A stretch of DNA of 64,000 nucleotides from Chiridota heheva. Taxonomy: Eukaryota; Echinodermata; Holothuroidea; Apodida; Chiridotidae. Positions 1,877-38,920 of the stretch are shown here, one piece after another (position 1 is the stretch's first letter; every line of letters starts with the position of its first letter). Under the pieces are notes generated by a model, which saw only the letters and a program-made list of their open reading frames with translations, made no database searches and was not told the origin of the DNA. The position numbers and the translations under genes are program-made. Location: NCBI GenBank assembly GCA_020152595.1, contig JAIGNY010000918.1:427501-491500 (forward strand), written 5' to 3'.

Positions 1877-3533
1877 AACTAGAATGGTAAATACCGTCAT
1901 GGTTTGCATGCCCATGCAAATTGACACCCATATCATATGACCCGGCCAATTATAAAAATGGCATCTCACACTAAGTCCCACATGGCATCCCATGTCTCGC
2001 ATGGCATCCCACCTCATGTCCCACATGACATCCCATCCCATGTCCCATATGGGATTCCACCATATCTCCCACATGGCATGACATCCCATGTCCCACGTGG
2101 CATTCCATCATATGTCCCACAGGGTATCCCTTTCTATGACCCACATGGCATTCCACCCTATGGCTCACATCCCATGTCCCAAATGACATTCCACCTCATG
2201 TCCCACATGACATCCCATGCCTTGTCCCACATGGCATTTCACCATATCTCCCACATGGCATTCTACCATACAAGTGTACATGGCATCCCACGCTATGACC
2301 CACATGGATCCCATCCTACATGTATGTCCCACATTAACCCAACCATATGACATCCCTCCCTATGTCCCACATGGCATCCCTCCCTGTGTCCCGCATCAGT
2401 GGCTTCCCACCTGATGTCCCACATGGCATCCCACCATATGTTCCGCATGGTATCTCTCCCAATGACATCCTACTTTATGTCCCACATGGCATCACATCCC
2501 ATGTCCCCATGGCCTCCTACCCTATGTCCCACATGGCATCCTACATTATGTCACACATGGCATCTTACCTTGTCACACATGGCATCCCAACCTATGTTAC
2601 AGTCTGTGTTACTCGTGTCATCCCACCATGTCCCACATGGCATTCTACCCTGTTCCACATGGCATCCCACCCCATGTCCCACATAGCATCCCACTCCATG
2701 CCCACATGACATTCCATACGCTCCATAAGAAGTCTCATTCTAGCTATCAGTCCCTGATTGAGCATACTATGTATGAAAGTGTCAGTTCATATAATAACTT
2801 ATATGCAAATGACATGTCGAAATGGGGTGGAACGCCATGTCACACATGACATCCCATGTCCCACATGACATTCCATCCCATCCCACCCTATGTCGTGCAT
2901 GGCATTCCACCATATATCCTACATGGCATTCCACATGGCATCCCAACCCATGTCCCACATGGTATCCCACCCTATGTCTCACATGACGTCCCCATAGGCT
3001 CCATAAGAAGTCTCATCCTAGCTATCAGTCCCTCATTTGAGCATACTGTGTATGAAAGTGTCAGTTCATATAATAACTTATATGCAACTTATAGGTCATA
3101 TTATGCAAATGACCACAATAATAAAGGTGGAGTTTAATAATCATGCCTGATACAACTGTTGGTGCCTAAATATTTTAAAGAATTTTAAGGATTTTAAATC
3201 TCAAGTGCTACAAGAGAGACTTGAGGATCTCTAAAGAATATTGGAAAATTATATTATTTTACAGTAATCTTCCAAAAAAATATCAAATGTTTTGTAGACT
3301 TTTTAAGGAAACTAGTCTTTAATCCTGTCTTAAGTGTCTCTAAAAAACTTTAACATTTTGTAAGAAAATTCTAACCTTCCATAAGGATATCTGAAGAAAC
3401 TTTAACTTTTTCTAAGGAACTCTGAAGAAACTTTAACATTTCTAAGGAAATCTCAAGACAAATCTGTGGACGGCCAGACGGACGTAATCGCCATTACATA
3501 GGTTCGCAATATGCTTCGCATGCAAACCAAAAA
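1877..3533 (+). mobile_element. Element A, copy 1: hairpin-ended element with CATG minisatellite core
   Basis: The 5' end has the imperfect hairpin ATGGTA-AA-TACCGT, then the subterminal repeat GGTTTGCATGC at 1901-1911. The 3' end has its perfect inverse GCATGCAAACC at 3518-3528, inside a terminal hairpin 3501-3528 preceded by CATA. Between them are a short 5' block, about 1 kb of degenerate 24-bp units (CCCACATGGCATCCCACC plus CTATGT), a block with CTCCATAAGAAGTCTCATCC, and an AT-rich 3' block. Copies 2 and 3 lie at 18377 and 36756, all in the same orientation. The open frames rich in SHMASHP come from the 24-bp period. Confidence 0.85.
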
Positions 3534-4115
3534 CACAGAGACTGTTCAGGAATGAACAATATACAAGTGATGTCAATATTAGCCTGATTTCAGTCATTTC
3601 TAGACAAATCTAATAGAACTTTAAATGAATTATCTCAGTGATCAGCGATGTACCATAATAGGACAAAAATACAATCAGAAATTTGAAAAAATTACTTCAA
3701 TATCTTACTCTGTTCAGAATATAATGAATATTGAGATGTAACAAATCTGTATGAAATGACTGAGATAAAAAGTGTTGTGGAAGAATGACATCACAGCCTC
3801 ATATTCTTACCATTCTGTTAATATGTTTTCAATAAAAGTTCATTTTACTTATTATTATTTCATAATATTTTTTTAAACATTTTTTTCAGGTGCTAAATCA
3901 TAATTACTATATAATAATATATTGTAGTTCTTTCTTGCAATGAAATACACTACAACTTTTGAAGAATGAGAGGGTGTGGTGTCATAACTAGTTGTATTTC
4001 AGAGGTTTTAAATGAACATAAATTTTTGAGCGGCTTTATTCACTATTTTGTTTCTTTAAACGGCGCTTTTATATAAGATGAACTTGCTTGACCACTGAAT
4101 AAATCCTTGTTTGCA
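3534..4115. mobile_element. Foldback element F1, degenerate copy (F1b)
   Basis: The left part has GCCTGATTTCAGTCATTTCT and the right part has the GTTTCTTTAAACGG / GATGAACTTGCTTGACCACTG blocks of the F1 right arm. The centre is AT-rich and diverged. It directly follows element A1. Confidence 0.5.
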
Positions 4116-4151
4116 TACCTCCTTAACATAACAAGTTTTTGAACAATTCCT

Positions 4152-4715
4152 GTAAGGATTAATTCATGGGTCAAGCATGTTCATCTTATTTGAAAGAGGA
4201 CTTTAAAAGTAACAAAATGGTGAAGAAAGCATTCAAAAATCTAATCCTGTTAAGGAGATATTCAAGTTTAAAGCTCTGTCTTATCTGTGTAGAAATAAAA
4301 GACTGGTGTAGTAATCTACTATGAATTGTTGGTGCACTGATCCTCAAATTCTGAACAATTGTTAATGTATTTTAAAGGAAAATTATCTAACACTTTTAAA
4401 TATTTGAAAATGTTTTAATACAAACTTTCTTCAGATGGTAAATTATAATAACCCCACTAGATTCTGTTTTTCTACTTTCCTGATATATCCATTGGATCTT
4501 AAGCCACAAAATCGCAAAATATGATAGAATACATAAAGATCATAAGAAATCTGAGGTTGTGACATCACAACTAGTCATTTCTACACAAATGATACTAAAC
4601 TTTAAAGTTAATGGAATGAGACTTTTGAATGGTTTCTTTACCATTTAGTTTCTTTTGAAGTCATTCATGTTTCATATAATATGGACCACTTGCTTGACCA
4701 CTGAACTTATCCTTT
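4152..4715. mobile_element. Foldback element F1, both arms (F1c)
   Basis: The left arm begins TAAGGATTAATTCATGGGTC and continues into CAAGCATGTTCATCTTA. The right arm ends with TGCTTGACCACTGAACTTAT and then CCTTTT, an inverted match. Outer arm parts are roughly 100-130 bp each. The centre carries the GTGACATCACAACTAGTC block shared with other copies. No open frame of note. Confidence 0.7.
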
Positions 4716-4799
4716 TGTTCTGCTTCTTGTCCTACTACTGTAGGATGAGCATGCTTGGCTATTTATCTTACTCTTCAAAGAGTATAATAAGTGAGGTCA

Positions 4800-5240
4800 T
4801 ATACATCTTAATGGAACATTCCCATGATTATTCATATGGTAGAGTAATATTAAAGAAACAATTTGCTGTAAAAATCTTGTTGATATCTTGTTCCCTTTAT
4901 GAGTTATTGCATTTCAAACATTGTGCAAATGTGTTGAAAAGTGACCTCACAGTACAAAATGTGATGTCATAAAAGCAGATCCAAGCCAATTCTTTATGTA
5001 TTTCTATCAAACAAAAAAGTGTTTTTCTTTTACTTAAAGTGTAAGGTTCATGAGTAGATGGGCAAAGCACGTTCTTATAAAGTGTATGTCATACCCTATC
5101 TCAACGAATAAACAAAAAATGGTTCCAGTGATTTAGGAAGAGGCAGTTCATTTTCAAAGAAAGTCACAAAAAGTGCCTTTGTTTTGCCTTTATGACATCA
5201 TACTGTACACACAATCTAAAACAAAGAAACTAAAAATGCA
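4800..5240. mobile_element. Foldback element family F2, degenerate copy
   Basis: It contains the arm motif AACATTCCCATGATTATTCATA, and a middle with ACCCTATCTC, ATGACATCATACTGTAC and GATATCTTGTTCC. These align by eye with the intact F2 element at 40149..40725 and the copy at 20640..21030. The ends are eroded. Confidence 0.5.
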
Positions 5241-5261
5241 CAAAGCGTGAGACATGCTGCT

Positions 5262-5400
5262 AATTAGAGTTGTTTCAACAATCTGTTGGATCTTCCAACT
5301 GGAATATCTTCATAACGGAGTAAGATTTTAAAACAATTTTGTTCTTCTTTCATATAAAATGAACAGGTTTGATTACTGAACTTACTGTGTCCTTCATAAA
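5262..5400 (+). mobile_element. Foldback element F1, right-arm fragment (F1d)
   Basis: A short stretch reading CTGGAATATCTTCATAACGG, AGTAAGATTTT and TTCTTTCATATAAAATGAAC matches the F1 right arm. It lies just downstream of the sialyltransferase stop codon in the gene's orientation. Confidence 0.5.
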
Positions 5401-5482
5401 GCAATTAAAATTCAACACACTGTAAGGATGTAAGTATCAAACAACCTTGAAATATAAAAACTTACCATGCTTTCTAGAAAAC

Positions 5483-5738
5483 TTATTTTCTGGATGTTTT
5501 CTTAAATTTGTTGGTGAAAGGCGTGTCGAGGGCTTTGGTGGCTTCATCTTGGACGTTCCACTCAGGGTGATGGAACGACATGTTGTACTTCAAGCCCCAC
5601 CTAGCAAAGACGACCTTCTCCGTCATGAATCGGTGACCCCCTTTGTTGGACAGCTCGTTGCCTTTGTACGTGGCACACTCTTGAGGACTTTCTTTTGGTT
5701 GGTAGTAATGGTACTTGATGGGTTTGGAGGAATGAATC
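5483..5738 (-). CDS. ST6GALNAC: Sialyltransferase last coding exon: motifs III and VS, stop codon
   Basis: The acceptor is TGTCTCCACCAG (AG at 5739-5740). One base (G) completes the split lysine codon, then 84 codons and TAA at 5483-5485. The exon encodes IHSSKPIKYHYYQPKESPQE, with motif III (HYYQ), then CATYKGNELSNKGGHRFMTE, with motif VS (H, four residues, E, seen as HRFMTE). The motif VS histidine and glutamate are the conserved catalytic-site residues of the family. The C-terminus is basic (FKKTSRK). A plus-strand open frame of about 150 codons over 5447..5905 is its antisense shadow. I saw no AATAAA in the minus-strand sense close behind the stop, so the 3' end of the transcript is not placed. 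Confidence 0.92.
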
Positions 5739-5905
5739 CTGGTGGAGACACAAAAGATATCATAAGGTCATCAGATGACTTCTGGGAAATACCCCACTTT
5801 TATTACATGTGGAGGATAATGACTGAGTGGTTTATTGATTGTATCAATGACCTGTACTATATGGTACATATGCAAATAACACAAGTGCTACTTCAGAATA
5901 ACTAA

Positions 5906-6345
5906 GTGTCAAGTAAAAGTGTTACCATTGCAAGTGGATTGTTTAACAATTTTAGTTGGATACAAATACTCACAATGGGCAAGGAATTGTTTATAATGGC
6001 ATACCCAAACCAGAGACCAGTTTTCTGGGTCAAGCAAAATAACTTTGTGAAACCTGTTGATAAGTTTACTATACTTGATGGCATATCCACAAAGCACAAA
6101 ATACTTCCTTTTGACTTAAATGCGAGTGAGTATGCAATGCTTCTTTCAAGTTTTTGATGTTTTACGCAAAAATTGATATGACAATAAAAAGGGTGGTGTT
6201 ACAATTATCACTGATGCCCATGGAAATCATTACCATGGAAAACAAGAAAGATGCATTCTTGTGTATCACTTTGAAGAAAATATCTTTCTTAGAAGTTTTT
6301 ACCACAAGCTTTGATCTCACTGCTCACTACATTGCTATTGCCTGA
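5906..6345 (+). pseudogene. Possible eroded coding fragment of unknown origin
   Basis: Two adjacent plus-strand open stretches (5906..6157 and 6154..6345) have a more protein-like composition than the surrounding intron. They include MAYPNQRPVFWVKQNNF and LPFDLNASEYAMLLSSF. In another frame over about 6190-6290 a stretch reads KKGGVTIITDAHGNHYHGKQ. Reading across them needs frame changes. I do not recognise the family. It could be a retropseudogene or transposon remnant, or chance. It is antisense to the host gene, in intron 3. Confidence 0.25.
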
Positions 6346-6480
6346 AAGATGGTCATTTACATTCAATAATTCTGGACACTTTATCATGGACCAGGGCATT
6401 TCTAAAATATTTTTAAAAGAGCTATGGCAATGTTTCAGTCGATCAACCACTTTTAATATTTCTTTAATATAAATGGCACC

Positions 6481-6757
6481 ATGTTATGCAACAGTTTGCA
6501 AGAATTACCCCACACCATTTAAAGAGTTTGCTTAGAATTACTATTTTGTATAATTGCTATAAAATTAATGTCACAATCAACTTTACTAGCAGTTAGCAGT
6601 ATTAAGAAACTTATCCATGTTATACAACAGAGTTTGCAAGAATTATCCCCACACCATTGAAAGAGTTTGCTTAAAATTACTATTTTGTATAATTGCTATA
6701 AAATTAATGTCACAATCAACTTTACTAGCAGTTAACAGTATTAAGAAACTAATCCAA
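6481..6757. repeat. Tandem duplication of about 137 bp
   Basis: Two near-identical copies lie side by side. Each contains GTTTGCAAGAATTA, CCCACACCATT, AGAGTTTGCTT and TTACTAGCAGTTA.CAGTATT. The few differences suggest a fairly recent duplication. Confidence 0.9.
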
Positions 6758-6956
6758 GCTATTACATAAATCTATCGATATTTTCTGTCTTGGTTTCTGT
6801 GATGAAAACAAGACAAACACAGCTGCACTGATTAAATATAATATTCTGACACATACAGCTACTTTATCTCCAGCTTAATAGTGTTATAAATAATGATCAA
6901 TTTCAATTGTTACATCAACTCACTCAGTAAAAGCTGCACAACAAGTTAGGTTCCTA

Positions 6957-7310
6957 TGTGATACGGTCTAGAAAATTGTAATGAGAAAATGCCTGCATCC
7001 AAAATCATGATGAGCCGTAATAATTGCAATGTATTATTGCTTTTACAGAAATATTTCATTTTGCTCATTTGTCATTTGCAAAAATTTGAGTGGTAATACA
7101 TGCATAATACAAAATAACATCAGCATTTTCTAGATCTTACGGTCTAAAAAATTGTAATGAGAAAATGCCTGCATCCAAAATCATGAGGAGTTGTTATAAC
7201 CATGTGTTAATGTTTTAACAGAAATCTTTTATCTTGCTCATTTGTCATTTGCAAAAATTTGAGTGGTAATACATGCATAATACAAAATAACATCAGTACA
7301 GGACCCGAAG
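6957..7310. repeat. Tandem duplication of about 177 bp
   Basis: Two copies each begin near TACGGTCTA.AAAATTGTAATG and end with ATACATGCATAATACAAAAT plus AACATCAG. The second copy lacks part of the middle. Confidence 0.85.
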
Positions 7311-7439
7311 TCAATTGACTGAAGAATTGTTACATATTTAACCTAGCTGTTCAGCTACAGACATACATACACAAAGAATATAATTTGTATGCGCAATTCA
7401 TAATTAAACTCCAGGTTTTAATTATAATTTATGTCAGTT

Positions 7440-8345
7440 GCAATGATTCATGCCTAGCCATTACGCCAAAGCCTATCATTCTTTGAGACTTAATGCTCTT
7501 CTCTAATTAACTGTCTTTTTTTTTTCTCAGTGAAAGGACAAATAAAATTTAATTTCATCATGTAGCTGACTGTTATTTTCATATTTTTCAAATACATGCC
7601 CAATTCATACCAGTCACTATGGAAAGCCGAAGCCTATGATTCTTTGAGAGCTAATACTGTTTGAAAATAAGGGAAATAATCAAACTTAATCAATTCTTGT
7701 CACATAGCTGACTGTCATCTTCATATTTTTCAAATACATGCCCAATTCATACCAGTCACTATGGAAAGCCGAAGCCTATGATTCTTTGAGAGCTAATACT
7801 GTTTGAAAATAAGGGAAATAATCAAACTTAATCAATTCTTGTCACATAGCTGACTGTCATCTTCATATTTTTCAAATACATGCCCAATTCATACCAGTCA
7901 CTATGGAAAGTCAAGCCTATGATTCTTTGAGAGCTAATACTGTTTGAAAATAAGGGAAATAATCAAACTTAATCAATTCTTGTCACATAGCTGACTGTCA
8001 TCTTCATATTTTTCAAATACATGCCCAATTCATACCAGTCACTATGGAAAGCCGAAGCCTATGATTCTTTGAGAGCTAATACTGTTTGAAAATAAGGGAA
8101 ATAATCAAACTTAATAAATTCTTATTACATAGCTGACTGTCATCTTCATATTTTTCAATACATGCCCAATTCATACCCAGTCATTAGGGAAAAGCTGAAA
8201 GCCATTATTTTTTGTGAATTGATGTTGTTTTTAATTGTCTACATTTTTCATGTGAGGACAACAAATGATAATTCAAATTTTAAATTCTTATCAGGTAACT
8301 GACAATCATTTTTAAGTTTTTCAAATGCCATTCATACCCAATGGA
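7440..8345. repeat. 143-bp tandem array, about five to six units
   Basis: Units contain TAGCTGACTGTCATCTTCAT, ACATGCCCAATTCATACCAG and AAGCCTATGATTCTTTGAG. Neighbouring central units are 141-143 bp apart and nearly identical, and the outer units are diverged. This is usual where an array is homogenised at its centre. No open frame. Confidence 0.9.
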
Positions 8346-11180: not shown

Positions 11181-11184
11181 TAAA

Positions 11185-11849: not shown

Positions 11850-13435
11850 TTAATGAAGGCTTAAGGGCACCACAACAGCGAGGGTCAAATTGTGCCTGAG
11901 AGGTTAGATCATTTCAGAGGTAGCAAGAAAAGAAATTGGAGTCTGAGAGAAGTATGGGGACTAAGAGCCAGGAAGCTAGGATTGAAAGAGGAAGTGCAGG
12001 GGTGACAAGAAAGGCAAAAGTAGGGTAGAGGGAGGTGGGAGAGGAGGACTAAATATGGTTGTAGAGGGAGGCACGATGAAGGCAGGAGGCAATTTTATCC
12101 GGAATATTTTCTGAAAGAGCTGGGCTATGGACTTGTGAGTGGCAAGGGAAGCCGCTCTGGGAAGGTTGTACAGGGGGAAGGCACAAAAAGAATGTGGTGG
12201 ACTGTGAGGGGTAAATGGTAATAGCTGCAGAGGGGTGGGGGTAACCAGTAAGGAGGTGGGAGTGAGATGGGTGTGGAGTTATCCCTCTAAGATTGAGTAA
12301 AGAAGTAAGGACAGATTTGGAGTCTGAGAAGATGGCAAAGTGGCATATAGTTGAGGGCGAGTAGGATGGCCTCGGCCGAGAAGATGGACGAGTAGTTGTG
12401 AAGCCTACTATTAAAGGTGATATCTTGGATGATGACAGTAGCAGCTGTCTTGTCGCCTTCCTTGGAGCCATCTGTATAGATGGAGGTGTAGTTTGAGAGT
12501 TGGTCTTTGATTTGGTTGTGGAGGTTGATGAAGAGATTGGGGTGGGTTTGGGTTTGGGTTTTGTTATGAGTGGAGAGGCCCAGGTGGATAAAAGGAAGGG
12601 ATGGCTCAGGGAGGAAAAGTGGGCCAGGAGAAGGTGCCAAGAGTGGCGGGGTTGATGCCAAGATGGTAGAGGTTGGGTTTGATGCGTAAGCTGAAGAGAG
12701 GGGCAAGGGCTTTAGTTCTATCAAAGAGGGTGGAGAAATTAGGGTACCTAATGAGGCAGATTACAGGGTTTTGGGTGTTGGTGAGGGTTCTGAAAGCGTA
12801 GGAAAGGCTAAGCTTTCTACACCTTAGGCAGAAAGGGGGTTTGTTGGCTTCAACGTGAAGGCTGGTAATGGGGTTCGTCCTGCAAGCACCCAGGTAAAGT
12901 CTGAGGGCTTCATTTTGATAGCGTTGAGGTAAGAGTTGTGAAAGGCGCAGTAGACAAATTGCCGTAGTCGAACTTCGCACGAATGGTGAGCCTGAAGATT
13001 TTTAGGAGAGCGTGGGGGTTCGCACCCAAAGTGGTGTTGGAGAGAAGATGGAGATGGTTGAGGGAGCTGTTGCATTTCTGTTTCAGGTTGGTGATGTGTT
13101 GCTTGTAGGAGAGCTTGGGGTCCAGGGTTAAGCCCAGAAACTTAGTGTAATCAACGTTAGGGATGCGATTGCCATTGAGCACGAGTTTGGGTTGGGGTGG
13201 AGATTGTTGAAATGACAGAAGTGCATGCAGACTGTCTTGTTTTGAAGTATTTAAAACCGCTATTATTCCACCAATCTTGCAGCTGGTTGAGGCTAAGTTG
13301 GAGCCTATTTTTGACAACAGAAAAGCTAGGGGAGGAGTAGAAGATGGTGAAGTCGTCCTCGTAGAGGGCATGTTTGATGACAAGGCCAAGGTTGTCCGCG
13401 ATATTGTTAATGCTCATGTTGAATATTAAAGTTTG
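11850..13435 (-). pseudogene. I-like non-LTR retrotransposon, copy 1, 5'-truncated
   Basis: On the minus strand the copy starts inside the RT domain (ALYEDDFTIFYSS, an altered form of the Y.DD catalytic box; copy 3 has YVDD). It continues through TKFLGLTLDPKLSYKQHI, then RNase H landmarks: YTDGSKEGDKTAA, an AEAILLAL box and SDSKSVLTSLLN. Part of RNase H is deleted, joining LLN to the C-terminal region. It ends in the shared 3' sequence (plus strand AAGGGCACCACAACAGCGAGG). RT plus RNase H in this order indicates the I group. Frameshifts make it inactive. Same orientation as the host gene. Confidence 0.85.
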
Positions 13436-13934: not shown

Positions 13935-14499
13935 AAAGGATTGTTCAGTGGTCAAGCAAGTCCATCTTATATTAGAGAGGACTTTAAAAGAAACAAAATA
14001 GTAAAGAAAGCATTCAAAAATCTTATTCCGTTAAAGAGATATTCAAGTTTAAAGTTTGGTATCATTTGTGCAGAAACGACTGAAATCAGACTACTTGTGA
14101 TTTCATAGGCGCAGATTCCTCAAAGTCTATGTATTCAATCATATTTCGTCCTGCGATTTTGTGGCTTAAAAACCATGGGATATGTCAAAAAAGTAGTAAA
14201 ACTGAATCTAGGAAGGGTATTTATAATATACCACCTGACGAAAGTTGAGGGAAAATAATTTAAATAGTTAAAAAAATTAAATAAACTTTCTTTAAAATAC
14301 ATAAAGACTTTTAGGAATCTGAGGCTGTGACATCACAACTAGTCTGACTCTAGTCGATTCTACAAAAATGAAACCAAACTTTAAACTTGAATATCTCCAT
14401 AACGGAATAAGATTTTGCAATGCTTTCTTTACCATTTTGTTTCTTTTAAAGTCCACTTTCATATAAGATGGACATGCTTGACCACTGAACTAATCCTTT
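13935..14499. mobile_element. Foldback element F1, best copy (F1e)
   Basis: The two ends are long inverted repeats. The left begins AAAGGATTGTTCAGTGGTCA, then AGCAAGTCCATCTTATAT. The right ends with ATATAAGATGGACATGCTTG, then ACCACTGAACTAATCCTTT. Homology continues inwards for roughly 160 bp per arm. TTAA stands at the left edge but not at the right. There is no transposase. It is a MITE or foldback element. Confidence 0.85.
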
Positions 14500-16794: not shown

Positions 16795-16799
16795 CTGGT

Positions 16800-18376: not shown

Positions 18377-20358
18377 AACTAGAACGGTAAATACTGTCAT
18401 GGTTCACATGCCCATGCAAATTGATGCCCATGTCATATGACCCGGCCAATTATAAAAATGGCATCTCACACTAGGTCCCATGGCATGGCATGTCTCACAT
18501 GGCATCCCACCCCATGTCGTACATGGCATCCCACCCCATGTCCCACATGACATCCCATCCCATGTCCCACATGGCATTCCACCATATCTCCCACATGGCA
18601 TCCCACCCCATGTCCCACACACCATCCCATGTCCCACAAGGCATTCCATCATATGTTCCACAGGGCATCCCATCCTATGACCCACATGGTATTTCACCCT
18701 ATGTCCCACATCCCATGTCCCAAATGACATCCCACCTCATGTCCCACATAGCATCCCATGCCTTGTCCAACATGGCATTCCACCATATCTTCCACATGGC
18801 ATTCCACCATACAGTGTCTCACATGGCATTCCACCATATGTCCCACATGGCATTCCACTATGTCCCACATGGCATCCCATGCTATGACCCACATGGATCC
18901 CATCCTACATGTATGTCCCACATTAATCCAACTATATGTACCACATGACATCCCTCCCTATGTCCCACAAGGCATCCTTCCCTGTGTCCCGCATCAGTGG
19001 CTTGGCATCCCACCATATGTTCCACATGGTATCCCTCACAATGTCCCAATGACATCCTACTTTATGTCCCACATGGCATCACATGTCCCCATGGCCTCCT
19101 ACCCTCTGTCCCACATAGCCTCCTACCTTATGCCATGCATGGCATCTTACCTTGTCACACATGGCACCCTACCTTATGTCACACATGGCATCCTAACCTA
19201 TGTCACACTCTGTGTTACTCGTGGCATCCCACCATGTCCCACATGGCATTCTAACCTGTTCCACATGGCATCCCACTCCATGTCCCACATGCCATCCCAC
19301 CTAATGTCCCACGTGACATCCTATAGGCTCCACAAGTCTCATCCTAGCTATCACAGTCCCTGATTGAGCATACTATGTATGAAAGTGTCAGTTTATACAA
19401 TAACCTATAAGCAAATGACTTGTTGAAATGGGGTGGGACACCATGTCCCACATGACATCCCATGTCCCACATGACATTCCATCCAATGGCATTCCACCCT
19501 ATGTTCTGCATGGCATTTCACCATATATCCTACATGGCATTCCACCCTCTTCCACATGGCATCCCAACCCATGTCCCACATGGCATCCCAGCCTATGTCT
19601 CACATGACGTCCCATGACTCCATCAGAAGTCTTATCCTAGCTATCACAGTGCCCGATTGAGCATACTATGTATAAAAGTGTCAACTCATATGATAACTTA
19701 TATGCAAATGAGTTGTTCAATAAGAAAAAAGGGTGCAGTCAAATAAGTATGCCTGATATAGCCCTTGGTGTATACAACATGGTAAATATTATATCATGTC
19801 CCTTATTTCCCCCATCCATGTCCCACATGACATTTCTCCCTATGTCCATATGCAATCACATCCTGTCACACTCCCTGACTAAGCACACTAAATACAAAAA
19901 GTCTGGTCAGGTCATATACAGTAGCAACTTTATGCAAATGACCACAATAATAAAGGTGGAGTTAAATAATCATGCCTGATACAACTGTTGGTGCCCAAAT
20001 ATTTTGAAGAATTTTAAGGACTTTAAATCTCAAGTGCTACAAGAGAGACTTGAGAATCTCTGAAAAATATTGGAAAATTATATCATATTACAGTTATCTT
20101 CTAAGAAAATATCAAATGTTTTGTAGACTTTTTAGGGAAACTAGTCTTCAATCCCGTCTTAAGTGTCTCTGAAAAACTTTAACATTTTATAAAGAAATTC
20201 CAACCTTCCATAAGGATATCTAAAAAACTTATAACTTTTTCCGAGGAACTCTGAAGAAACTTTAACACTTCTGAGGAAATCTCTGGACAAATCTGTGGAC
20301 GGCTGGATGTAATAGGCATTACATAAGTTTGCATTATGCTTCGCATGCGAACCAAAAA
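18377..20358 (+). mobile_element. Element A, copy 2
   Basis: This has the same layout as copy 1. The 5' hairpin region ACGGTAAATACTGT is followed by GGTTCACATGC at 18401-18411. It then has a 24-bp CATG minisatellite, the CTCCA..AGAAGTCTTATCC block twice, an AT-rich 3' block, and a terminal hairpin at 20327-20353 ending GCATGCGAACC. Its 3' block carries an extra segment (CCTGATATAGCCCTTGGTGT) also present in copy 3 but not in copy 1. Confidence 0.85.
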
Positions 20359-21479: not shown

Positions 21480-22030
21480 AAGTCAAGTAATTTCTTATAT
21501 GAAAGAGGACTTCACAAGAAACACAATAGTGAAGAAAGCATTCAAAAATCTCATTCCGTTAAGGAGATATCTAAGTTTAAAGTTTAGTATCATTTGTGTA
21601 GAAATGACTTAAATCATACTAGTTGTGATGTCATAGCCTCAAGATTCCTCAGTCTTTATGAATTCTATCATATTTTGTCCTGCGATTCTGTGGCTTAAAA
21701 ACCATGGGATATGTCAAAAAGTTAAAAACTGAATCTTGGAAGGGTATTTATAATATACCACCTGAAGAAAGTTGAGGAAAAATAATTCAAATAGTAAAAA
21801 AAAAAAAAAAAAAAACTTTCTTTAAAACACATTAATAATTGTTAAGAATGTGAGGATAAAGATGCCAACTTTCCATAATAGATTTACTACACCAGTCATT
21901 TCTACACAGATAAGACAGTCTGCTTTAATCTTGAAATAACTTTTAAATGAAAGAACATTTTTGAACACTTTCTTCACCAATTTGTTTCTTTTGAAAGCCA
22001 GTTTCATATAAGATGGAAATGCTGGACGTA
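21480..22030. mobile_element. Foldback element F1, both arms (F1f)
   Basis: Left arm: GAAAGAGGACTTCACAAGAA, then AAGCATTCAAAAATCTCATT. Right arm: AACACTTTCTTCACCAATTT, then CATATAAGATGGAAATGCTG. A 19-bp A run sits in the centre near 21798. Outer termini are eroded. Confidence 0.7.
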
Positions 22031-22624: not shown

Positions 22625-23780
22625 TTGTTTGTTTGATGAAGGCTTAACAGCACCACAGCAACGAGGGTCAAATTGGGCCTGAGAGGTTTGATCATTCTAG
22701 AGGTAGGAAGGAAAGAAAACAGGGGGAGATTGAGAGAAATACAAGAACTAAAAGTCAGAAAGCTGGGATCGAGAGAGGAAGTGCATGGGTGAAAGAAAAA
22801 AAAGTAGAGAGGGGGTGGGAGAGGAGGAATAAATATGGTTGTTAAGGAAAGCATGATGAAGGAAGGAGATTATTTATCCGGAGGGTTTTTCTGGAAGAAC
22901 TCGGCAATTGAGTTGTGGGGAGTGAGGGAAGCTCTGGATAGGCTGTACAGGGGGCAAGCAAGGAGAACGTAATGGACTGTGAGGGGTGCAATGGCTATTG
23001 TTGCAGAGGGGTTGGGGGAGCCAATAAGGAGGTAAGAGTGAGTGAGGTGTGTGTGACCTATTCTAAGATGGGTAATATGAACGTTGTTGACACGAGAGGT
23101 TGTTGATGGTGGGTTTAATCGGAATGGTGGGCTGGACGACGTAAAGTGTGTTATCAATTTGGGAGTCCCATGAGGTTTGCCAGCGGTCACGAACAAGGGA
23201 AGCGATAAGTGGTTTGATGTCAGAAAGGGTTTTGGGAAATGGGGTAGGGGGAGATTGAGGGTAAGCTTAGCGGCTGCATCAGCCCTGTCATTGCCAGGGA
23301 TGCCAACATGCCTGGGTATCCAAAAGAAAAGAATACTTTTCCTGCAGAGGGTGGGCGAAAGGAGTTTCCGGAGGAGGTGGGATGTGGAGTTATCCCATTT
23401 AAGATTGAGTAAAGAAGGACAGCCTTGGAGTCGGAGAAGATGGCACAGTGGCTGAGCGGAGAGTACTCAATAAAGTCGAGAGCGAGGAGGATGGGCTTTG
23501 CTTTGGCTGAAAAGATGGATGAGTAGTTGGGAAGCCTACTACTGAGGGTGGTGTATTGGATGATGGCAGCAGCAGCTGTCTTGTCGCCTTCCTTAGAGCC
23601 ATCAGTATAGATGGAGGTGTAGTTTGAAAGTTGGTCTTTGATTTGGTTGAGGAGATTGATGAAGCTGTTAGGGTGGGTTTGGGTTTTGTGATGAGTGAAG
23701 AGGCCCATGTGGATAGAAGGGAAGGAGGTGGCCCAAGGAGGAAAAGTGGGCCAGGAGAAGGTGCCAAGATGAGGCGCTCA
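22625..23780 (-). pseudogene. I-like non-LTR retrotransposon, copy 2, 5'-truncated
   Basis: The copy starts upstream of RNase H and keeps YTDGSKEGDKTAAAAIIQY, IFSDSKAVL, WIPxHxG-like and DRADAA-type landmarks. A C-terminal part follows with VHITHLRIGHTHLTHSYLL and HYVLLACPLYSLSR, the closing region of I/Jockey-type ORF2. Frameshifts break it. The 3' end carries the same CACCACAGCAACGAGGGTCA block as the other two copies, followed by a GTTTGTTTGTTTGATGAAGG tail (plus strand). Confidence 0.85.
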
Positions 23781-23809
23781 TCATATAGTCATGGACGAGG
23801 CATTACAAA

Positions 23810-27766: not shown

Positions 27767-29620
27767 AACCAAAAGGTTTTGTGGTTGCGATGCTTTTGTT
27801 TTTCATAAGTTGATTGAGTTGCAAAATTTGTATTAACTGTCATGCTATTGCATATCATGCGGAAATATTTGTTCCCTGATAATTATTTATAGGCCACACC
27901 CACCATATAGATCAATACATATGTTGACAACATTAGCATTTGCACAATATTTAACATTATCATAGCAAGTATGATGCAAAAACGGTTGCTCTTTTATCAT
28001 ATTTCAAGAATTCTTCAGTAAGCCCTTGTCTACTCATTAATATTCAGGACATCGCTACCACAACTAAAGAACATATGTACATCTGTATACCACTTATAGC
28101 ATGAATCTGATATATAGTTAATGAGATACAATAAGGTGCTTACATCATTTAACAATTTCAAACTAAGCCACGCCCACCATGCATATTAATGACATCTGTT
28201 GATAACATAAGCATGTACACAATAACCAACAAAATTATGAACATTTCCAGATTTTTACATTAAGCCCTGCCTACTCATTGATATGCATGACATTACCATC
28301 AAAATCAACAGTGCACATCAACAGACCATGGGCTATCTGTGTAACAAATGTGACATGAATTCAGTTTACCGCTCTTGAGATACCGAGTTTTATACAAGCT
28401 CTTTTAAGCAAAATCATATTTTAAGTCTCGCCCACTACGCATATTAATAAGTCAACATTTTTACATCATGAACATGTACACATCATAATTATACCAAATA
28501 TGGAACAAAACAGACATGCAATTGTTAAAATATGAACATTTCCAGAATTTTACAACAAGCCCCACCTACTCATTAATATGCATGACATCATTACCAAAAT
28601 CTACAGACCATGGACTACCTGTATACCGAATATGACATGTACCAAATATGACATGAATCCAGCTACCGTTCTTGAGATTATCTGCAAAATCATATTAAGC
28701 CCCGCCCACCACACATATAAATAAAAGTCAACGTTTTTACATCATGAACCTGTATACACCAGCTAACATTATAAGTATACCACATATGAAACAAAAGAGA
28801 CATAGTTGTTAATATATGAACATTTTCAGATTTTTACATTATGCCCCGCCTACTCATTGATATGCATGACATCACCACCAAAATCTACAGAGCACATCTA
28901 CAGACTAAGGGCTAGCTGGGTAACAAATATGACACAAATCTAGTTCACCGTTTTTGAGATACCGTGATTTATAAAGCGCTTTTCAGCAAAATCATATCAA
29001 GGCCCACCCACTACGCATAATAATAAGTCAACATTTTTACATCATGAACATGTACACATCAGCTAACATCATAATTATACCACATATGAAACAAAACAGA
29101 CATGCGGTTCTTGAAATATGAAGTTCCAGAATTTTACCTAAAGCCCCGCCTACTCATTAATGTGCATGACATCACCACCAAAAATAATAGGGCACATCTT
29201 CAGATCATGGGCTATGTGTACCAAATATGACATGCATCCAGTGTACCGTTCTTGAGATTCCTATTTACAAGCTCTTTCAGAAAAATCATATTAAGCCCCG
29301 TCCACTATGCATTTTAATAAAAGTCAATGTCTTTACATCATGAACATGTACACACCAGCTAACATCATAATTTTATCAAATATGAAACAAAGCAGATATG
29401 CGGTTATTATAATATGGACATTTCAAGATTTTTACATTAAGCCCTGCCTACTCATTAATAAGCATGACATCACCATCAAAAACAATAGGGCACATATATG
29501 CCATGAATCCAGTGTATCGTTCTTGAGATATCGTGTTTACGAGCTGGCCGTCACGAGCACACACAAACATATGCCATCATGACCGCATAGGTTCCTGATG
29601 TTATCGCATCGGAACCAAGT
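27767..29620 (+). mobile_element. Element B, long copy: hairpin-ended element with alternating 130-150-bp units
   Basis: The 5' end has the hairpin AACC-AAAA-GGTT at 27767-27778, then GGTTGCGATGC at 27783-27793. The 3' end has a hairpin at 29590-29616 that begins GGTTCCTGATG and ends GCATCGGAACC, the near-inverse of the 5' repeat (10 of 11). The 3' hairpin is preceded by CATA. The core has about six units of 260-300 bp, each made of two related halves opening with TAAGCCCCGCCCAC or TAAGCCCCGCCTACTCATTA and containing ATTAATATGCATGACAT. Fragments lie at 44467 and 60247. Confidence 0.8.
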
Positions 29621-30890: not shown

Positions 30891-30894
30891 ATCT

Positions 30895-31090
30895 TCCCTC
30901 CCTCAATGAACCCCACCCTCCTCAATGAACCCCACCCCTCCCTCAATGAACCCCACCCCTCCTCAATGAACCCCACCCCTCCCTCAATGAACCCCACCCC
31001 ACCCTCAATGAACCCCCCTCCTCAATGAACCCCACCTTCAATGAAGCCCACCCTCCCTCAATGAACCCCCCTCTTCAATGAAGCCCACCC
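30895..31090. repeat. CCCTCAATGAACCCCACC-type tandem repeat
   Basis: About eight or nine imperfect units of 20-25 bp based on CCTCAATGAACCCCACCC. It merges into the 18-bp array that follows, so one probably arose from the other. Confidence 0.9.
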
Positions 31091-31613
31091 CACCCTGCAA
31101 CCCCACCCCACCCTGCAACCCCACCCCACCCTGCAACCCCACCCATGCAACCCCAACCCTGCAACCCCACCCCACCCTGCAACCCCACCCCACCCTGCAA
31201 CCCCACCCCACCCTGCAACCCCACCCCACCCTGCAACCCCACCCCACCCTGCAACCCCACCCCACCCTGCAACCCCACCCCACCCTGCAACCCCACCCCA
31301 CCCTGCAACCCAACCCCACCCTGCAACCCCACCCCACCCTGCAACCCCACCCCACCCTGCAACCCCACCCCACCCTGCAACCCCACCCCACCCTGCAACC
31401 CCACCCCACCCTGCAACCCCACCCCACCCTGCAACCCCACCCCACCCTGCAACCCCACCCCACCCTGCAACCCCACCCCACCCTGCAACCCCACCCCACC
31501 CTGCAACCCCACCCCACCCTGCAACCCCACCCCACCCTGCAACCCCACCCCACCCTGCAACCCCACCCCACCCTGCAACCCCACCCACCCTGCAACCCCA
31601 CCCCACCCTGCAA
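31091..31613. repeat. 18-bp C/G-rich tandem array, about 29 copies
   Basis: The unit is CCCTGCAACCCCACCCCA and copies are almost identical. The minus strand has runs of GGGGT and GGGTGGGGT at regular spacing. Since 18 is divisible by three, long frames are open in several phases (six-residue repeats such as GCRVGW or PTPPCN). These are artefacts. GC content is far above the flanks. Confidence 0.98.
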
Positions 31614-31615
31614 CC

Positions 31616-32420: not shown

Positions 32421-32427
32421 TCAAGTT

Positions 32428-32520: not shown

Positions 32521-32559
32521 GTCATGCATGTTTGAAATGACTGATCTGAGAAACATAAA

Positions 32560-32705: not shown

Positions 32706-33237
32706 TTGTGAAAAACTGGGGGACACTTCCTCCCCCCTCCCTCCCTTTTCACGGCCCATGGTCAATAAAATGATAGATATGTATCATCCTGATTGAAAAT
32801 GACTGTGGTATGTTAAAGACTAAACAAAATTGCTCCAGCACTTCAAAGAATAGGATAGCCATTTACAAAACAAAGGATTTTACATCAAAAAATACCGAAG
32901 TAGCGCTATAATACATCACAAATCAGCATACAAATTTGTATGTCAATTGATGCCTGAGATTTCAAAACGCTCTAAAATGTTCCCTATTAAACAGACTTTA
33001 ATTTATATTTTGCTATTGTTTTAAAGCAGTTAGCTAGTGCTGCCGCAACATGTCCCTATACCAAACTTCTTGCTACTTGCATGGTTTTTTAACAGATTCT
33101 GATGCAACTAAGCTTATACCGTCTCCACAGTTCATATACAGTACCTTTTATAGGAGCACTCTATAAAATGGGGGAGATATAGAAGAATCAAATAGTTACC
33201 ATGCAATGGAGCTGAGATTGTCTATTACTCACAATTA
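32706..33237. other. Stretch with no recognised feature
   Basis: Nothing recognised. Confidence 0.4.
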
Positions 33238-33393
33238 ACTTCACCCAGGGTTGGAAAAATACAAAAAAGAATCACTCGCCAAACTTGGCAAGGCTTAATT
33301 ACCACAGTATATTATAATATTTCTACTCGCCACATTTATTTTTTGTTCGCCTATGGGGGGTAGGCGAGTGGTTTTTCCAACACTGACTTCACC
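33238..33393. mobile_element. hAT-type MITE with intact 8-bp target-site duplication
   Basis: The element occupies 33246-33385. It starts CAGGGTTGGAAAAA and ends with the inverse TTTTTCCAACACTG. A further inverse pair, CACTCGCC and GGCGAGTG, lies just inside. The 8-bp direct repeat ACTTCACC flanks it exactly at 33238-33245 and 33386-33393. CAG ends plus an 8-bp duplication is the hAT signature. At 140 bp it has no coding capacity. The intact duplication suggests a younger insertion than most neighbours. Confidence 0.9.
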
Positions 33394-33404
33394 CGAAAAT
33401 ATGC

Positions 33405-33515
33405 TGGTGGGTCTGCAACCAGTGAGTTGACAACTGGTTATCAAAGGCCGTGGCTGTCTTGATATAATGTCCAGCAGTGGATGCTTTCGAACGTTAAATT
33501 TGCTATGCTATATTA
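33405..33515 (+). mobile_element. SINE family S2, 3' part
   Basis: It contains GGGTCTGCAACCAGTGAGTT, ACTGGTTATCAAAGGCCGTG, GCTGTCTTGATATAATGTCC and a GAACGTTAAATTTGCTATGC end. These match the full S2 copy at 55290..55475 in opposite orientation. The tRNA-like head is missing. Confidence 0.75.
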
Positions 33516-34860
33516 TATCTTTTTGTGTTATTACTACTTCTTGCTTCAAGATTGCCAACATTCGCAAATGAATGTGGGAATGATTGAATATTCGACAAGG
33601 TGATATGTTTCTATAGACCTAATCCAAAAGTTGTTTACCATCTGGGAACTTTACAAGCACTGGCAAATTGGTAGGCAGTGTGGGAAAACTGTATGTACAC
33701 AAACTACGCATATTGTGCTTAATTGCTTATCTCGGTAAATCAATGAAAAATGGGTTATTCTGACCCATTTCATTATTTATATTGTACGAAACGGTTCAAT
33801 TCAATCCATAATTTGTATGCAAAATAGTGGCACAGTTGGTTGTGATTTTAACTGGAAATCTGTTTGCTTCTCAAGCAAACCACAAAGCTCTAACTTGAAC
33901 TTTGCACAAGCATTTATCCAAGGCCATGCAGCATTAGTGTTTACGCATAAAAATACGGATCCGTCAAAAATCCACCATTGATAGCTGTGAAAACTCAGTC
34001 TTTCGGTGATTGACATTAGATCAAAATGAAAATTTGTTAAACTATATGCCGTAAATCTGGGTAGAACTAGAATTGGTTAAAATCTGCAGATATGGCCTAC
34101 ATTTACAGCCAGTATGCGACTGCCTAGGCTTACCAGCTAATTTTAACCATGACAAACCCACTGAAGTTAGGCCATCCAAAATTTAAGAAAACATGAACAA
34201 TACGTAATTATGACCAAATCAAGGCAGATATCAAATTGATTGAATGTTAATTTGATATACAAATAAATTTCATGTCTTTATTTTGTTATGCATGGGATTT
34301 ATATCAAATCTAGATGTAGATTCGATGTGGGATTTTTCTCTTGGATTGTTAAATATATATACAATTTTTGGTATGGGTGGACTTCTTGTTTGTGCATGTT
34401 TCCTCAACTAAGCATTCAAATGAGGGCCACTGAATTAAGTTTCCTTTTTGTACTAATTTGAATGACATAAGATCAGATATATGCAAGATGGCTATAAATT
34501 GTAGATTTAAATGCCAAGAATTGCCGTATTTTTAAATAGTTTAATATGCATGATACTGTAGGGCATGGTCACTAATAGATCACACAATGCAAAATTGATC
34601 ATTTGAATGACTGCAAATATTACCGCTGATGTATTTACCAAGTTCATACTATTTTTTGTAGTCTATATCAAGCTAGACCTATATGTCAGTGTTCCACAAC
34701 AGGAAGTACTGAGGGCCACTGAATCAAGCTTCATGAGATAAAATTGAAATAAAGTAATGTATGGTCATATAATACTCACATAGTACCGCCATAAAAACTT
34801 TAAAAGTGGACATCTTCTTTAGATGTCTTCAGTTTGTATCCTAAATTTTAATATATTGAT
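33516..34860. other. Intron sequence with no recognised feature
   Basis: AT-rich. A short phrase GAGGGCCACTGAATTAAG recurs at 34422 and 34712. Nothing else seen. Confidence 0.4.
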
Positions 34861-35015
34861 TGTTACTTTTGCATTTATTTGCCTTTTTTGTCTATCTTTT
34901 ACATCAAGTTTAATTTTACATTTGCTATTTTAATGTAAACAAGGCCTCATCTTAACCAGCTTTTAGCTGAATAAGCTTTCCTGTATAAAATAGAGCAAAA
35001 TCAAATCAAATAAAT
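34860..35015 (+). mobile_element. Probable LINE 3'-UTR relic
   Basis: The phrase GGCCTCATCTTAACCAGCTT, then TTAGCTGAATAAGCTTTCCTG and TATAAAATAGAGCAAAATCA, resembles the 3' end common to L2/CR1-type LINEs. It ends in short AAATC repeats. There is no coding part. Confidence 0.4.
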
Positions 35016-36755
35016 AGCCATGGCCTATTCATCCCATCATAAGATCATATTCTCAGACTATAAATGATCATCCAAATGTGATTTTTCTTACTGCTTATGT
35101 CATCTCTTTGGCAACTCAGTTGATAGTGTAGATGTTTATACCACAGTTTTATATGCTGCGTGTTAAATGATAGTGTATGAAATGTGTGATACAAATAAAC
35201 AGTGCATATATGCATACTCTTCTTTCGCCTTTACTAAGAATTCACTCACCATGCTCACTGAACTGTGTGCAAGCTGGAAGACCAAATTTTTATTAAAAAT
35301 GTGAAACACTTCCAGGAAAATAATTTAAGTAAGAAGCCAAATATCAATATATTAATATGTTTATGTGTAGTACCTGTAAAGCTCTATCTTCATGGAATAT
35401 TATCAATTGAGAAAAATCATAATTTTCTTTTAAAACTTTTACAAAGCCTGGTGCAAACACTTTTTCTAATGAAATAAATGCATGTATGTAAAATCACCAT
35501 GGTAGTGGACTTTCACCTGCCCTCTCTCTATATATTTTTGTAATACTAACAAGTTTTTACGTGCATAAGCAATCATTATTTAGTTTTTACTTTTTAGGGA
35601 TAAAATGTGACCATCATTCTCAATCCTGGCAAGAAAATGGCGAAGTTGTTTCCGATGTAGTTGACAAAACTACTGGTATTATTCCTAATAAGAATAGCCT
35701 TTGCCACACCCATTGCCAACATGTGTACATCATACGTAGGCCTATTTTAATTGACATGGATTAAACTTGCAACACAACATTACCAAATCTTATATACGAA
35801 AGGATCATCAAGCTTTACTTGAAATATTATTTCATTGCATCCCAAAAGTGATTGGTCAATAAAAAGTTAAATCTGGGAATTTCAGTCCATTTTAGAGTTC
35901 AAAAAGAATAAAGTGGGCTACTAGGTACATGGAAAAATGTTAAGGAGATACATGTAGTAAACAAAAAACAACAGTGGTACCATGCCAAAATGAAAAAACT
36001 CTGAAGTTACGCTTGAATAACTTAACTGAAGGGCTAATAATGCAGCAAGGTTACCGTATTTGCATTGTGTTGTTTGAATTGAACTGTACACGTAGGCCTA
36101 GGCCCTAACACGAATCTTCCTGAAAAAATCACGCAGTGATCAAAACCTTTGCTGAAGAGATAGTTGAAAACGCGTTTTTGTTTAATTTTCAGTGAAACTG
36201 CAGTACACTATATCGTAATTACAGTTAGCCTAATTAAGACTAAGACTAATTAAGCCAAATTGATAAAGATGAAGTTCGGCATTATCGAATATCTAGTTAT
36301 TATACACACACCCTCAGTATGGTTGGCATTGGGATTGCCGTACAACCAGCCATCACTATAGGCAGCTGGCATCAGTCCGACAATACTATGGCACTATCGA
36401 ATACAGTATGTAAAGTTTATTGACTTTTAAGTTGTTTTAACATTAGGGCTAATCTGTCCAATAGGCCTATTTTTCATAAGAATTGAGTTAAAATTGTAGT
36501 TTTCACTCCAATTTAGCTTGAAACAACTTCTTTTTGAGTAAAATATATACAATTTTTGTAAAGTCAAAAAGCTTTTTAGAGGCAAAATTTGCCATGGATC
36601 AATTACAGAGAATCTACTTTTCCCACGTTTTCTGTTGACTTGATGCGTTGTACTACCAAAATTTGGTTTTGTTTACAAAATTGTTGCTGGATTATGTCAT
36701 TTTGCGTTTGCGCAAAATGCAATCATTACTAGTGGGAAGTCACACTATACTTCTG
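35016..36755. other. Intron sequence; one weak open frame at 35561-35764
   Basis: A plus-strand frame with GIKCDHHSQSWQENGEVV and a preceding TTTTTAG could pass as an exon but has no recognisable family and no clear donor. The rest is AT-rich and featureless. Confidence 0.3.
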
Positions 36756-38920
36756 AACTAGAACGGTAAATACCGTCATGGTTCACATGCCCAAGCAAAT
36801 TGACACCCACATTATATGACCCAGCCAATTATAAAAATGGCATCTCACATTAAGTCCCACATGGCATCCCATGTACCACATGGCATCTCACCCCATGCCC
36901 CATATGGCATCCCACCCCATGTCCCACATTGCATCCCAGCCCATGTCCCACATGACATCCCATCCCATGTCCCACATGGCATTCCACCATATCTTCCACA
37001 TAGCATCCCACCCCATGTCCTACATGACACCCCATGTCCCACGTGGCATTCCATCATATGTCCCACAGGGCATCCCATCCTATGACCCACATGGCATTCC
37101 ACCCTATGCCCCACATGGATCACATCCCATGTCCCAAATAACATCCCACCTCATGTCCCACATAAAATCCCATGCCTTGTCCCACATGGCATTCCACCAT
37201 ATCTCCCACATGGCATTCCACCATATCTCCCACATGGCATTCCACCATATCTCCCACATGGCTTTCCACCATAGTGTCTCACATTGCATTCCACCATATG
37301 TCCCACATGGCATTCCAACATATGTCCCACATGGCATCTCATGCTATGACCCACATGGATTCCATCCTACATGTATGTCCCACATTAATCCAACCATATG
37401 TACCACATGACGTCCCTCCCTATGTCCCACATGGCATCCCTCCCTGTGTCCCGCATCAGTGGCTTCCCACCTGATGTTCCACATAGCATCCCACCATATG
37501 TTCCACATGGTATCCCTCCCAATGTCCCAATGACATCCTACTTTATGTCCCACATGGCATCACATCCCATGTCCCACATGGCATCATCCCATCCCATGTC
37601 CCATTGGCCTCCTACCATATATCCCACATAGCCTCCTACCCTATGTCACACATGGCATCCTACCTTATGTCACACATGCCATCCTACCTTATGTCACACA
37701 TGGCATCCCAACCTATGTCACACTCTGTGTTACTCGTGGCATCCCACTATGTCCCACACGGCATTCTACCCTGTTCCACATGGCATCCCACCCCATGTCC
37801 CACATGGCATCTCACCCCATGTCCCACATGACATCCCATAGGCTCCATAAGAAGTCTCATCCTAGCTATCGCAGTCCCTGATTGAGCATACTATGTATAA
37901 AAGTGTCAGTTCATATAATAACTTATATGCAAATGACTTGTTGAAATGCCATGTCCCACATGGCATCCCATATCCCACGTGACATTCCATACCATGGCAA
38001 TTCACCCTATGTCCTGCATGGCATTCCACCACATATTCTACGTGGCATTCCACCCTGTTCCACATGGCATCCCACCCCATGTCCCACATGGCATCCCACC
38101 CCATGTCCCACATGGCATCCCACCCTATGTCTCACAGGACGTCCCATAGGCTCCATAAGAAGTCTCATCCTAGCTATCAGTCCCTGGTTGAGCATACATA
38201 CTATGCATGAAAGTGTCAATACATATGATAACTTATATGCAAATGAGTTGTTGAATAAGAAAAAAAGGTGGAGTCAAATAAATATGCCTGATATAGCCCT
38301 TGGTGTATACAACATGGTAAATCCCTCATGGCCCCCATCCATGTCCCACATGGCATCCCTCCCTATGTCCATATGCAATCACATCCTGTCACACTCCCTG
38401 ACTAAGCATACTAAATAAAAAAGACTGGTCAGGTCATATACTGTAGCAACTTTATGCAAATGACCACAATAATAAAGGTGGAGTTTAATAATCATGCCTG
38501 ATACAACTGTTGGTGCCCAAATATTTTAAAGAATTTTAAGGATTTTAAATCTCAAGTGCAACAAGAGAGATTTGACGATCTCTGAAGAATATTTGAAATT
38601 TATATCATTTTACAGTTATCTTCTAAGAAAATATCAAATGTTTTGTAGACTTTTTAAAGCAACTAGTCTTCAATCATGTTTTAAGTGTCTCTGAAAAACT
38701 TTAACATTTTATAAAGATATTCTAACTTTCCATAAGAATATCTGAAGAAACTTAAACTTTTTCTGAGACACTCTGAAGAAACTTTAACATTTTCTGAGAA
38801 ATTCTCAATAAAACTTTAACATTTCTGAGGAAATCTGTGGACGGCCGGACAGACAGACGGGTAAAACGGACGTAATCGCCAGTACATAGGTTCGCATAAT
38901 GCTTCGCATGCAACCAAAAA
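36756..38920 (+). mobile_element. Element A, copy 3 (longest)
   Basis: The 5' hairpin ACGGTA-AA-TACCGT (36763-36776) is perfect. GGTTCACATGC follows at 36780-36790. The 24-bp CATG array is longest here. The 3' block has CCTGATATAGCCCTTGGTGT and later GGACGTAATCGCC. The terminal hairpin 38889-38915 begins GGTTCGCAT and ends GCATGCAACC (one base shorter than in copies 1 and 2), preceded by CATA. Orientation is the same as copies 1 and 2, antisense to the host gene. Confidence 0.87.

Follow-up and report, generated by a model that had tools for sequence, protein, structure and literature searches.

Two Interspersed Families in Chiridota heheva with HINE Anatomy and CTRG 3' Ends, Probably Protein-less Helitron2/Helentron-type Elements

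Introduction

Here we describe two interspersed families, A and B, in a 64,000-nucleotide stretch of the genome of the holothuroid Chiridota heheva (contig JAIGNY010000918.1, positions 427,501 to 491,500; the window), and we compare them with the closest described rolling-circle transposons. In Helitron2 (Bao and Jurka 2013, PMC3627910), which starts with a 5' T, one asymmetric terminal inverted repeat (ATIR) lies 0–2 bp from the 5' end and forms a 5' hairpin, and the other lies upstream of the 3' hairpin, about 20–30 bp from the end; the Chlamydomonas families insert downstream of TTTT without a target-site duplication (TSD). The subterminal inverted repeats (subTIRs) of HINE/Helentron elements measure 12–15 bp in a mite and 13 bp in DINE-1 (Thomas et al. 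2014, PMC4067079). Cg_HINE of Crassostrea gigas has a left subTIR with a complementary inverted repeat and a GTCY/GTCC microsatellite, a tandem core, and a right subTIR with a palindrome (Vojvoda Zeljko et al. 2020, PMC7492417). As judged from sequence, A and B are very likely related, protein-less Helitron2/Helentron-type rolling-circle families (HINEs) that would be moved in trans by a Rep/helicase. They are ordinary in kind, except that features normally confined to one or the other of two branches of this transposon class occur together in their ends.

Results

Anatomy of A and B

Three full A copies and one B copy lie in the window, all on the minus strand. Their parts are listed here, read from the sequence unless another source is given.

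1879..3530, minus strand: A1, full element, TT-GGTTC...CTAG (window sequence; border consensus from the genome sample)
1879..1882, minus strand: A1 3'-terminal CTAG (window sequence; CTAG in 80/100 of the genome sample)
1884..1897, minus strand: A1 3' palindrome, one mismatch
1901..1911, minus strand: A1 3' asymmetric inverted repeat
1958..2992, no strand: A1 tandem core, interrupted, 24-bp CATG units (repeat scan)
3468..3484, no strand: A1 microsatellite, GGAC/GTCC-type, adjoining the 5' hairpin
3497..3528, minus strand: A1 5' hairpin, inverted repeat (3518–3528) plus complementary arm
18379..20355, minus strand: A2, full element
18384..18411, minus strand: A2 3' palindrome (one mismatch) and 3' inverted repeat
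18489..19606, no strand: A2 tandem core, interrupted, 24-bp units (repeat scan)
20322..20353, minus strand: A2 5' hairpin
36758..38917, minus strand: A3, full element
36763..36790, minus strand: A3 3' palindrome and 3' inverted repeat
36837..38136, no strand: A3 tandem core, interrupted, 24-bp units (repeat scan)
38885..38915, minus strand: A3 5' hairpin, one base deleted
27767..29618, minus strand: B, element, the 3'-border CTGG absent from this copy (sequence and relatives)
27767..27793, minus strand: B 3' palindrome (27767–27778) and 3' inverted repeat (27783–27793)
28232..29495, no strand: B core, ~295–300-bp tandem repeat, about 4 units (repeat scan)
29586..29616, minus strand: B 5' hairpin

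On the minus strand the order of parts is TT, an 11-bp ATIR (GGTTC..) with its complementary arm (the 5' hairpin), a microsatellite, a tandem core, a second 11-bp ATIR, a palindrome and CTRG. A preliminary description of this DNA had read the polarity in reverse: what it took for the "start" is the 3' end, and the 5' end is at the hairpin it called "closing". The shared terminal design around unrelated tandem cores that it had proposed was borne out in A1, A2, A3 and B. The 5' end reads ..TTTTT-GGTTCGCATGC-GAAGCATT-ATGCGAACC-TATG.. in A and ..GGTTCCGATGC-GATAG-CATCAGGAACC-TATG... in B, and the microsatellite after the hairpin is of the GTCC type in A and of the GTGTATGT type in B-type copies. 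At the 3' end, the second inverted repeat precedes the palindrome, which is followed by CTAG (A) or CTGG (B-type relatives; the B copy of the window is without it). In the undecayed copies compared, the ATIR is GGTTCGCATGC in A and GGTTCCGATGC in B, the same at both ends within a family.

A1, A2 and A3 have their ends and the 24-bp tandem core in common, and the listed open reading frames (ORFs) of at least 110 aa inside A are translations of the arrays; no listed ORF of at least 110 aa lies inside B. The 24-bp units had been recognized before, as had an array in B, described there as 130–150-bp halves; we measured it as about four units of ~295–300 bp. The hairpin ACGGTA-AA-TACCGT reported for A3 is present at 36763–36776, with one mismatch each in A1 and A2, and the B terminal hairpin AACCAAAAGGTT is at 27767–27778. 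The reported GGTT repeats start at 1901 (A1), 18401, 36780 and 27783 (B), except that A1 reads GGTTTGCATGC and not GGTTCACATGC. Their near-inverse counterparts occupy 3518–3528, 20343–20353 and 29606–29616, with a one-base deletion in A3 (GCATGC-AACC; AACC ends at 38915). The motif CATAGGTTC, said to stand ahead of this repeat in every copy, does so in A1, A3 and B, but A2 has two mismatches (CATAAGTTT). The subterminal match of A1 is indeed perfect (11/11 bp), and the terminal repeat pairs of A2 and B each match at 10/11. As a sign of co-selection the perfect match was rejected, both changes being of the CpG-decay type, which proves nothing.

Fold tests and A-versus-B end alignments were made on one A and one B copy, both hand-picked as undecayed, with 300 shuffles for folding and 5,000 for alignment. 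At the 5' end, none of the 300 shuffles folded as well as either copy; at the 3' end, 6 and 8 of 300 did.

Genome-wide Ends, Borders and Target Preference

We searched the 1.1-Gb genome that holds the window (3,744 contigs), counting exact patterns over its whole length and using the same pattern read backwards as the control for every end. The genome search with element ends called for in the preliminary description returned thousands of exact matches against 0–1 in controls. The left-end (5' hairpin) pattern CATAGGTTC-N(8-16)-GCATNNGAACC had 3,444 matches (control 0), of which the first 100 listed comprise A-type and B-type ends along with other variants; a more restrictive pattern for the A left end had 821 (control 0), the A right-end pattern GGTAAATACCGTCATGGTT 1,416 (control 1) and the B right-end pattern AACCAAAAGGTTTTGTGGTT 1,902 (control 0). 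By these counts, the families hold thousands of ends.

Flanks were tallied on the first 100 matches listed, in contig order, and all tallies below are of this kind; an exact match to the pattern core was required, so decayed copies are under-represented. CTAG closes 80 of the 100 A right ends and any CTRR 84, and the bases beyond are T (96), T (90) and then mixed (45 T, 31 A, 17 G, 7 C). B right ends close with CTGG in 70 and any CTRR in 78, followed by T (93), T (92) and mixed bases. Past the A left hairpin, the plus strand has A (98), A (98), A (77) or T (20), A (94), A (92) and then mixed bases, starting AAAAA in 67 and AATAA in 14. With the border assignment used, 77 of the A left borders are T|TT and 20 are A|TT. 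These flanks fit insertion into TT(T/A)|TT. Insertion between two T's without duplication had been named as support for Helentrons; the target does appear T-rich, with no duplication beyond TT at two nested sites, but it is better written TT(T/A)|TT.

The borders fall close to the hairpins, as previously supposed, although the actual positions are a few bases outside them: the C of CTAG is at 1879, 18379 and 36758, and the AA beyond the closing AACC is at 3529–3530, 20354–20355 and 38916–38917. The 5' ATIR lies 2 bp from the 5' end (TT-GGTTC; among 100 A left ends, 98 have the first of the two T's and 98 the second), and the 3' palindrome is 0–1 bp from CTRG, i.e. 4–5 bp from the element end.

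These borders bear on whether A and B could be canonical Helitron1 elements, defined by 5'-TC, CTRR-3' and insertion at A|T. The CTRR border of 84/100 A and 78/100 B right ends agrees with that assignment, as does an A rather than a T ahead of the left border in 20/100. The 5' end, however, is TT-GGTTC and not TC, a 5' hairpin and an ATIR pair are present, the palindrome lies 0–1 bp from CTRR rather than about 11 bp, and 77/100 left borders are T|TT, so that of the Helitron1 features CTRR-3' is found and neither 5'-TC nor strict A-T insertion is. We regard a canonical Helitron1 origin as improbable.

Nested Insertions and Empty Sites

At one locus (L034), an A copy is inserted in another A copy, with both borders and homologous unoccupied sequence available; the site in its empty form, GGCCAATTATAAAAATGGCATC, is found in the inner copy itself as well as in A1 and A2 of the window, and with one mismatch in A3. 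A second A copy lies inside a B core (L036+L090), and the matching spot in the window B is TTTTT in 3/4 units and CTTT in the fourth. Both occupied sites have five T's to the left of the element and two to the right, 7 compared with 5 in the empty-site homologue. If the empty site is taken as TTTTT, the occupied TTTTT..element..TT means that the element brings two T's, or that TT is duplicated, and nothing longer. The simplest reading is that an element TT-GGTTC...CTRG entered TT(T/A)|TT. According to the preliminary description, duplications typical of DNA transposons or retroposons would have refuted the class; neither nested site has a target duplication longer than TT.

The same T's could be read as those of a cut-and-paste element resembling a miniature inverted-repeat transposable element (MITE), in which the inverted repeats are subterminal and the target duplication is a 2-bp TT: TT stands at both borders, and 7 T's against 5 is what such a duplication gives. 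The ends, however, are strongly asymmetric, with a hairpin at one and an ATIR, a palindrome and CTRG at the other, and a copy on contig C79 has TC on the right and TT on the left, against duplication, a single case that may be a mutation. No cut-and-paste family is known to us that pairs ends of this asymmetric kind with 2-bp TT duplications, and we consider this origin even less probable than a Helitron1 one.

Two further loci are partial: one side of L067 fits the target, with no right end in L067+L092, and L019+L089 has a homologue on one side only, with four T's and not five. L065+L091 was rejected as an empty-site case, since its flank carries mutations and the surrounding homologous repeats show a difference of ~31 bp at the joint. 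In L065 the A copy sits inside one copy of a dispersed family of inverted repeats, whose arms are up to 88% complementary. This family is present in the window at 13943–14490, with copies near 860–1034, 4022–4294, 21493–21708 and 44116–44352.

Relationship of A and B

The left ends of A and B aligned with a score of 20 (shuffle mean -3.5), which 0/5,000 shuffles reached, and the right ends with a score of 8.5 (shuffle mean -3.4), reached by 2/5,000. Because their ends align far above shuffles, A and B look related, consistent with the earlier suggestion of one superfamily joined by its ends. No significant similarity was found between the A core and the B core (best E 1.4). Between the undecayed A and B copies the ATIRs differ at two positions, and these are the same at either end, a pattern expected when the ends of an element have to match.

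One further B-ended element and one truncated relative lie in the window:

58771..60515, minus strand: further B-ended element with another core, a 21-bp AGCTTGCTGCAAG-type array at 59555–59998 (end/repeat scan)
44462..44780, minus strand: truncated relative, CTAG-ended right end and part of one B-core unit (end scan)

The first also contains B-core sequence and a CA/TA-rich microsatellite beside its 5' hairpin; a left end was looked for in the second and not found. The six elements or fragments of the window whose ends were identified share one orientation.

Two unrelated families could in principle have converged on one terminal design, as the dissimilar cores (best E 1.4) would suggest. Against this, the end sequences align far above shuffles, further end types exist in the genome, and the element at 58771–60515 has B ends around a different array. 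Convergence has the lowest probability of the three alternatives; on end structure, borders and end similarity, canonical Helitron1, a MITE with a TSD and convergence were all rejected.

When the left ends were used as DNA queries, 2,785 (A) and 5,985 (B) first-look candidates came up, and 40 were scored for each. The left 251 bp of A2 match the 39 other scored places at 83–89%, and for 146 bp of the A core in L068 the 39 listed matches are at 96–99%, both among the best-scoring candidates. From the latter matches, part of the A family has probably amplified more recently. L068 itself joins a B left end to an A right end; as no other of the 40 scored candidates spans its joint, it was treated as a singleton chimera and rejected as a case of end-swapping. 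L031 and L076 each have a truncated left part with a second left end directly after it, an arrangement that suits concatemeric rolling-circle products, although independent insertions could give it too.

Two B right ends, G000:C3:1661120 and 1663085, are separated by 1,965 bp and have the same 8 bp of flank, which suggests a tandem duplication taking in host flank. Arrays of 22-bp CATG-type units (CCATCCCACCCTGTCCCACATG) at window positions 54927–55643 and 62431–62609 resemble the 24-bp unit of A and are possible sources or descendants of its core; the window end scan placed no A/B ends around them.

Comparison with Described Systems

The HINE/DINE-like class call of the preliminary description stands, in that all the DNA-level features of HINE/Helitron2 that we tested are present: a 5' ATIR 0–4 bp from the end, a hairpin with a complementary arm, an inverted repeat of at least 11 bp by the 3' palindrome, a T-rich target with no TSD (given the TT ambiguity), and a microsatellite and tandem core with no coding capacity. 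Like Helitron2 (PMC3627910), A and B have a 5' ATIR hairpin, a 3' ATIR before the 3' hairpin, a T-tract target without a TSD and a 5' T; they differ in ending with CTRG, which that text gives as a Helitron1 mark, and in flanks that fit TT(T/A)|TT. With HINE/DINE-1 (PMC4067079) they share subTIRs, an inverted repeat near the 5' subTIR (as in DINE-1), central repeats, a 3' palindrome, a T-rich target without a TSD, and non-autonomous copies that outnumber the partner. Mite HINEs in the same account have the palindrome ~8–35 bp from the 3' end and variable flanking T's, compared with 4–5 bp in A and B and an A left flank of TTTTT in 67/100 and TTATT in 14/100.

Cg_HINE, with Pearl, MgE and DTC84 (PMC7492417), has the same order of components, a likeness drawn from described anatomy and not from end sequences. 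Its group 2 likewise has related ends and unrelated cores, and it too is without an assigned autonomous partner; its monomers average 140–180 bp (in a search limited to 100–500 bp), compared with 24 bp in A and ~300 bp in B.

The CTRG 3' end is absent from the HINE descriptions in the available text of PMC4067079 and PMC7492417, and the only CTRR-ended match in the literature compared is proto-Helentron-Pi of Phytophthora infestans (PMC4067079). That element resembles A and B in its 5' TT, 3' CTAG and lack of a TSD. It is protein-coding, about 14 kb long, inserts between A and T, and is nearer in structure to Helitrons than to Helentrons, unlike the protein-less A and B with their HINE anatomy. 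A CTRR-type (CTRG) 3' end on Helitron2-type elements is mildly new; no HINE with a CTRR end was found in the literature searched, weak evidence from a search thin on subscription papers and Repbase.

Search for an Autonomous Rep/Helicase Partner

Pfam Helitron_like_N matched 11 places in the genome, with in-frame stops within the match in 10; the remaining place (C3699) has a frame of just 98 aa. When 189 aa of the best Rep remnant served as query, 19 matching stretches were found, spread over 13 loci. Stops are absent from 5 of these stretches, and no complete Rep gene was seen. In their motif the remnants may be Helentron-like. An ORF with a fragmentary OTU domain adjoins the best Rep remnant, and OTU is often found with the Helentron endonuclease (PMC5148889).

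All 11 Pfam loci were scanned for A/B ends, two of them extended to ~14–16 kb (L042+L085+L086+L093 and L043+L087+L088) and nine within ~1.5 kb of the Rep match; 4 of the 13 protein-match loci lay outside the scan. Two loose end matches near Rep loci (L040 and L087) both were without T's before and TATG after, and no A/B ends were found on the C1679 contig piece. Beyond one such loose match, the two extended loci showed no A/B end. The autonomous partner hoped for earlier was not linked to A or B: Helitron-like Rep remnants are present, none tied to A/B ends.

Discussion

Several points weigh against the assignment of A and B to Helitron2/Helentron-type families. No autonomous element with A/B ends was found around the Rep loci scanned, and a search for an empty A3 site with joined flanks gave no junction-spanning match. 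The TT at the borders cannot be divided cleanly between the element and a 2-bp duplication. Folded alone, the palindrome is weak in A1 (-0.6) and does not fold in A2. The class is read from sequence; transposition itself was not observed.

If the assignment holds, a Rep would recognize the A/B ends and nick at the T tract. One strand would be displaced starting at the 5' end, and replication would stop on reaching the 3' ATIR, palindrome and CTRG, with pairing possible between the ATIRs of the two ends. This displacement/stop model based on ATIRs is the proposal of Bao and Jurka 2013 (PMC3627910). The displaced single strand would then be inserted into a T-rich site. Under such a scheme the cores would be passengers that expand and are exchanged, with selection acting on the ends only.

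More tentatively, A and B may be the animal counterpart of the oomycete proto-Helentron, two large HINE families served by one machinery, with Helitron2-type 5' ends and ATIRs, a Helitron1-like CTRG, the target TT(T/A)|TT and a Rep/helicase lineage near the split between the groups; we hold this to be possible and rather doubtful.

From A and B it can be seen what a HINE retains, namely its ATIRs, 5' hairpin, palindrome, CTRG and the target TT(T/A)|TT, and that the core is free. A precise end and target signature makes the partner search concrete, including for the oyster HINEs (PMC7492417). A detection rule that takes CTRR as a mark of Helitron1 only would misfile Helitron2-type elements that carry CTRG.

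Other Features of the Window

Three sets of ORF fragments on the minus strand (12049–13389, 23220–23767 and 51686–53263) resemble non-long-terminal-repeat retrotransposons by eye, with an RNase H-like motif; Pfam gave no match on the one piece submitted. An Rfam search of the window gave 0 matches. A stretch at 54110–54180 (GGTAGAGCACCTGC..GGTTGTGGTTTCAATCC) is tRNA-like by eye, as in a tRNA-derived short interspersed nuclear element, with no Rfam match in the window. Clean 21- and 18-bp arrays occupy 30896–31615, the 18-bp unit being CCCACCCCACCCTGCAAC (30 copies, 96% match). An exon-like ORF at 43569–43988 on the minus strand matches Glyco_transf_29 (sialyltransferase; E 6e-17) and is probably a host gene.

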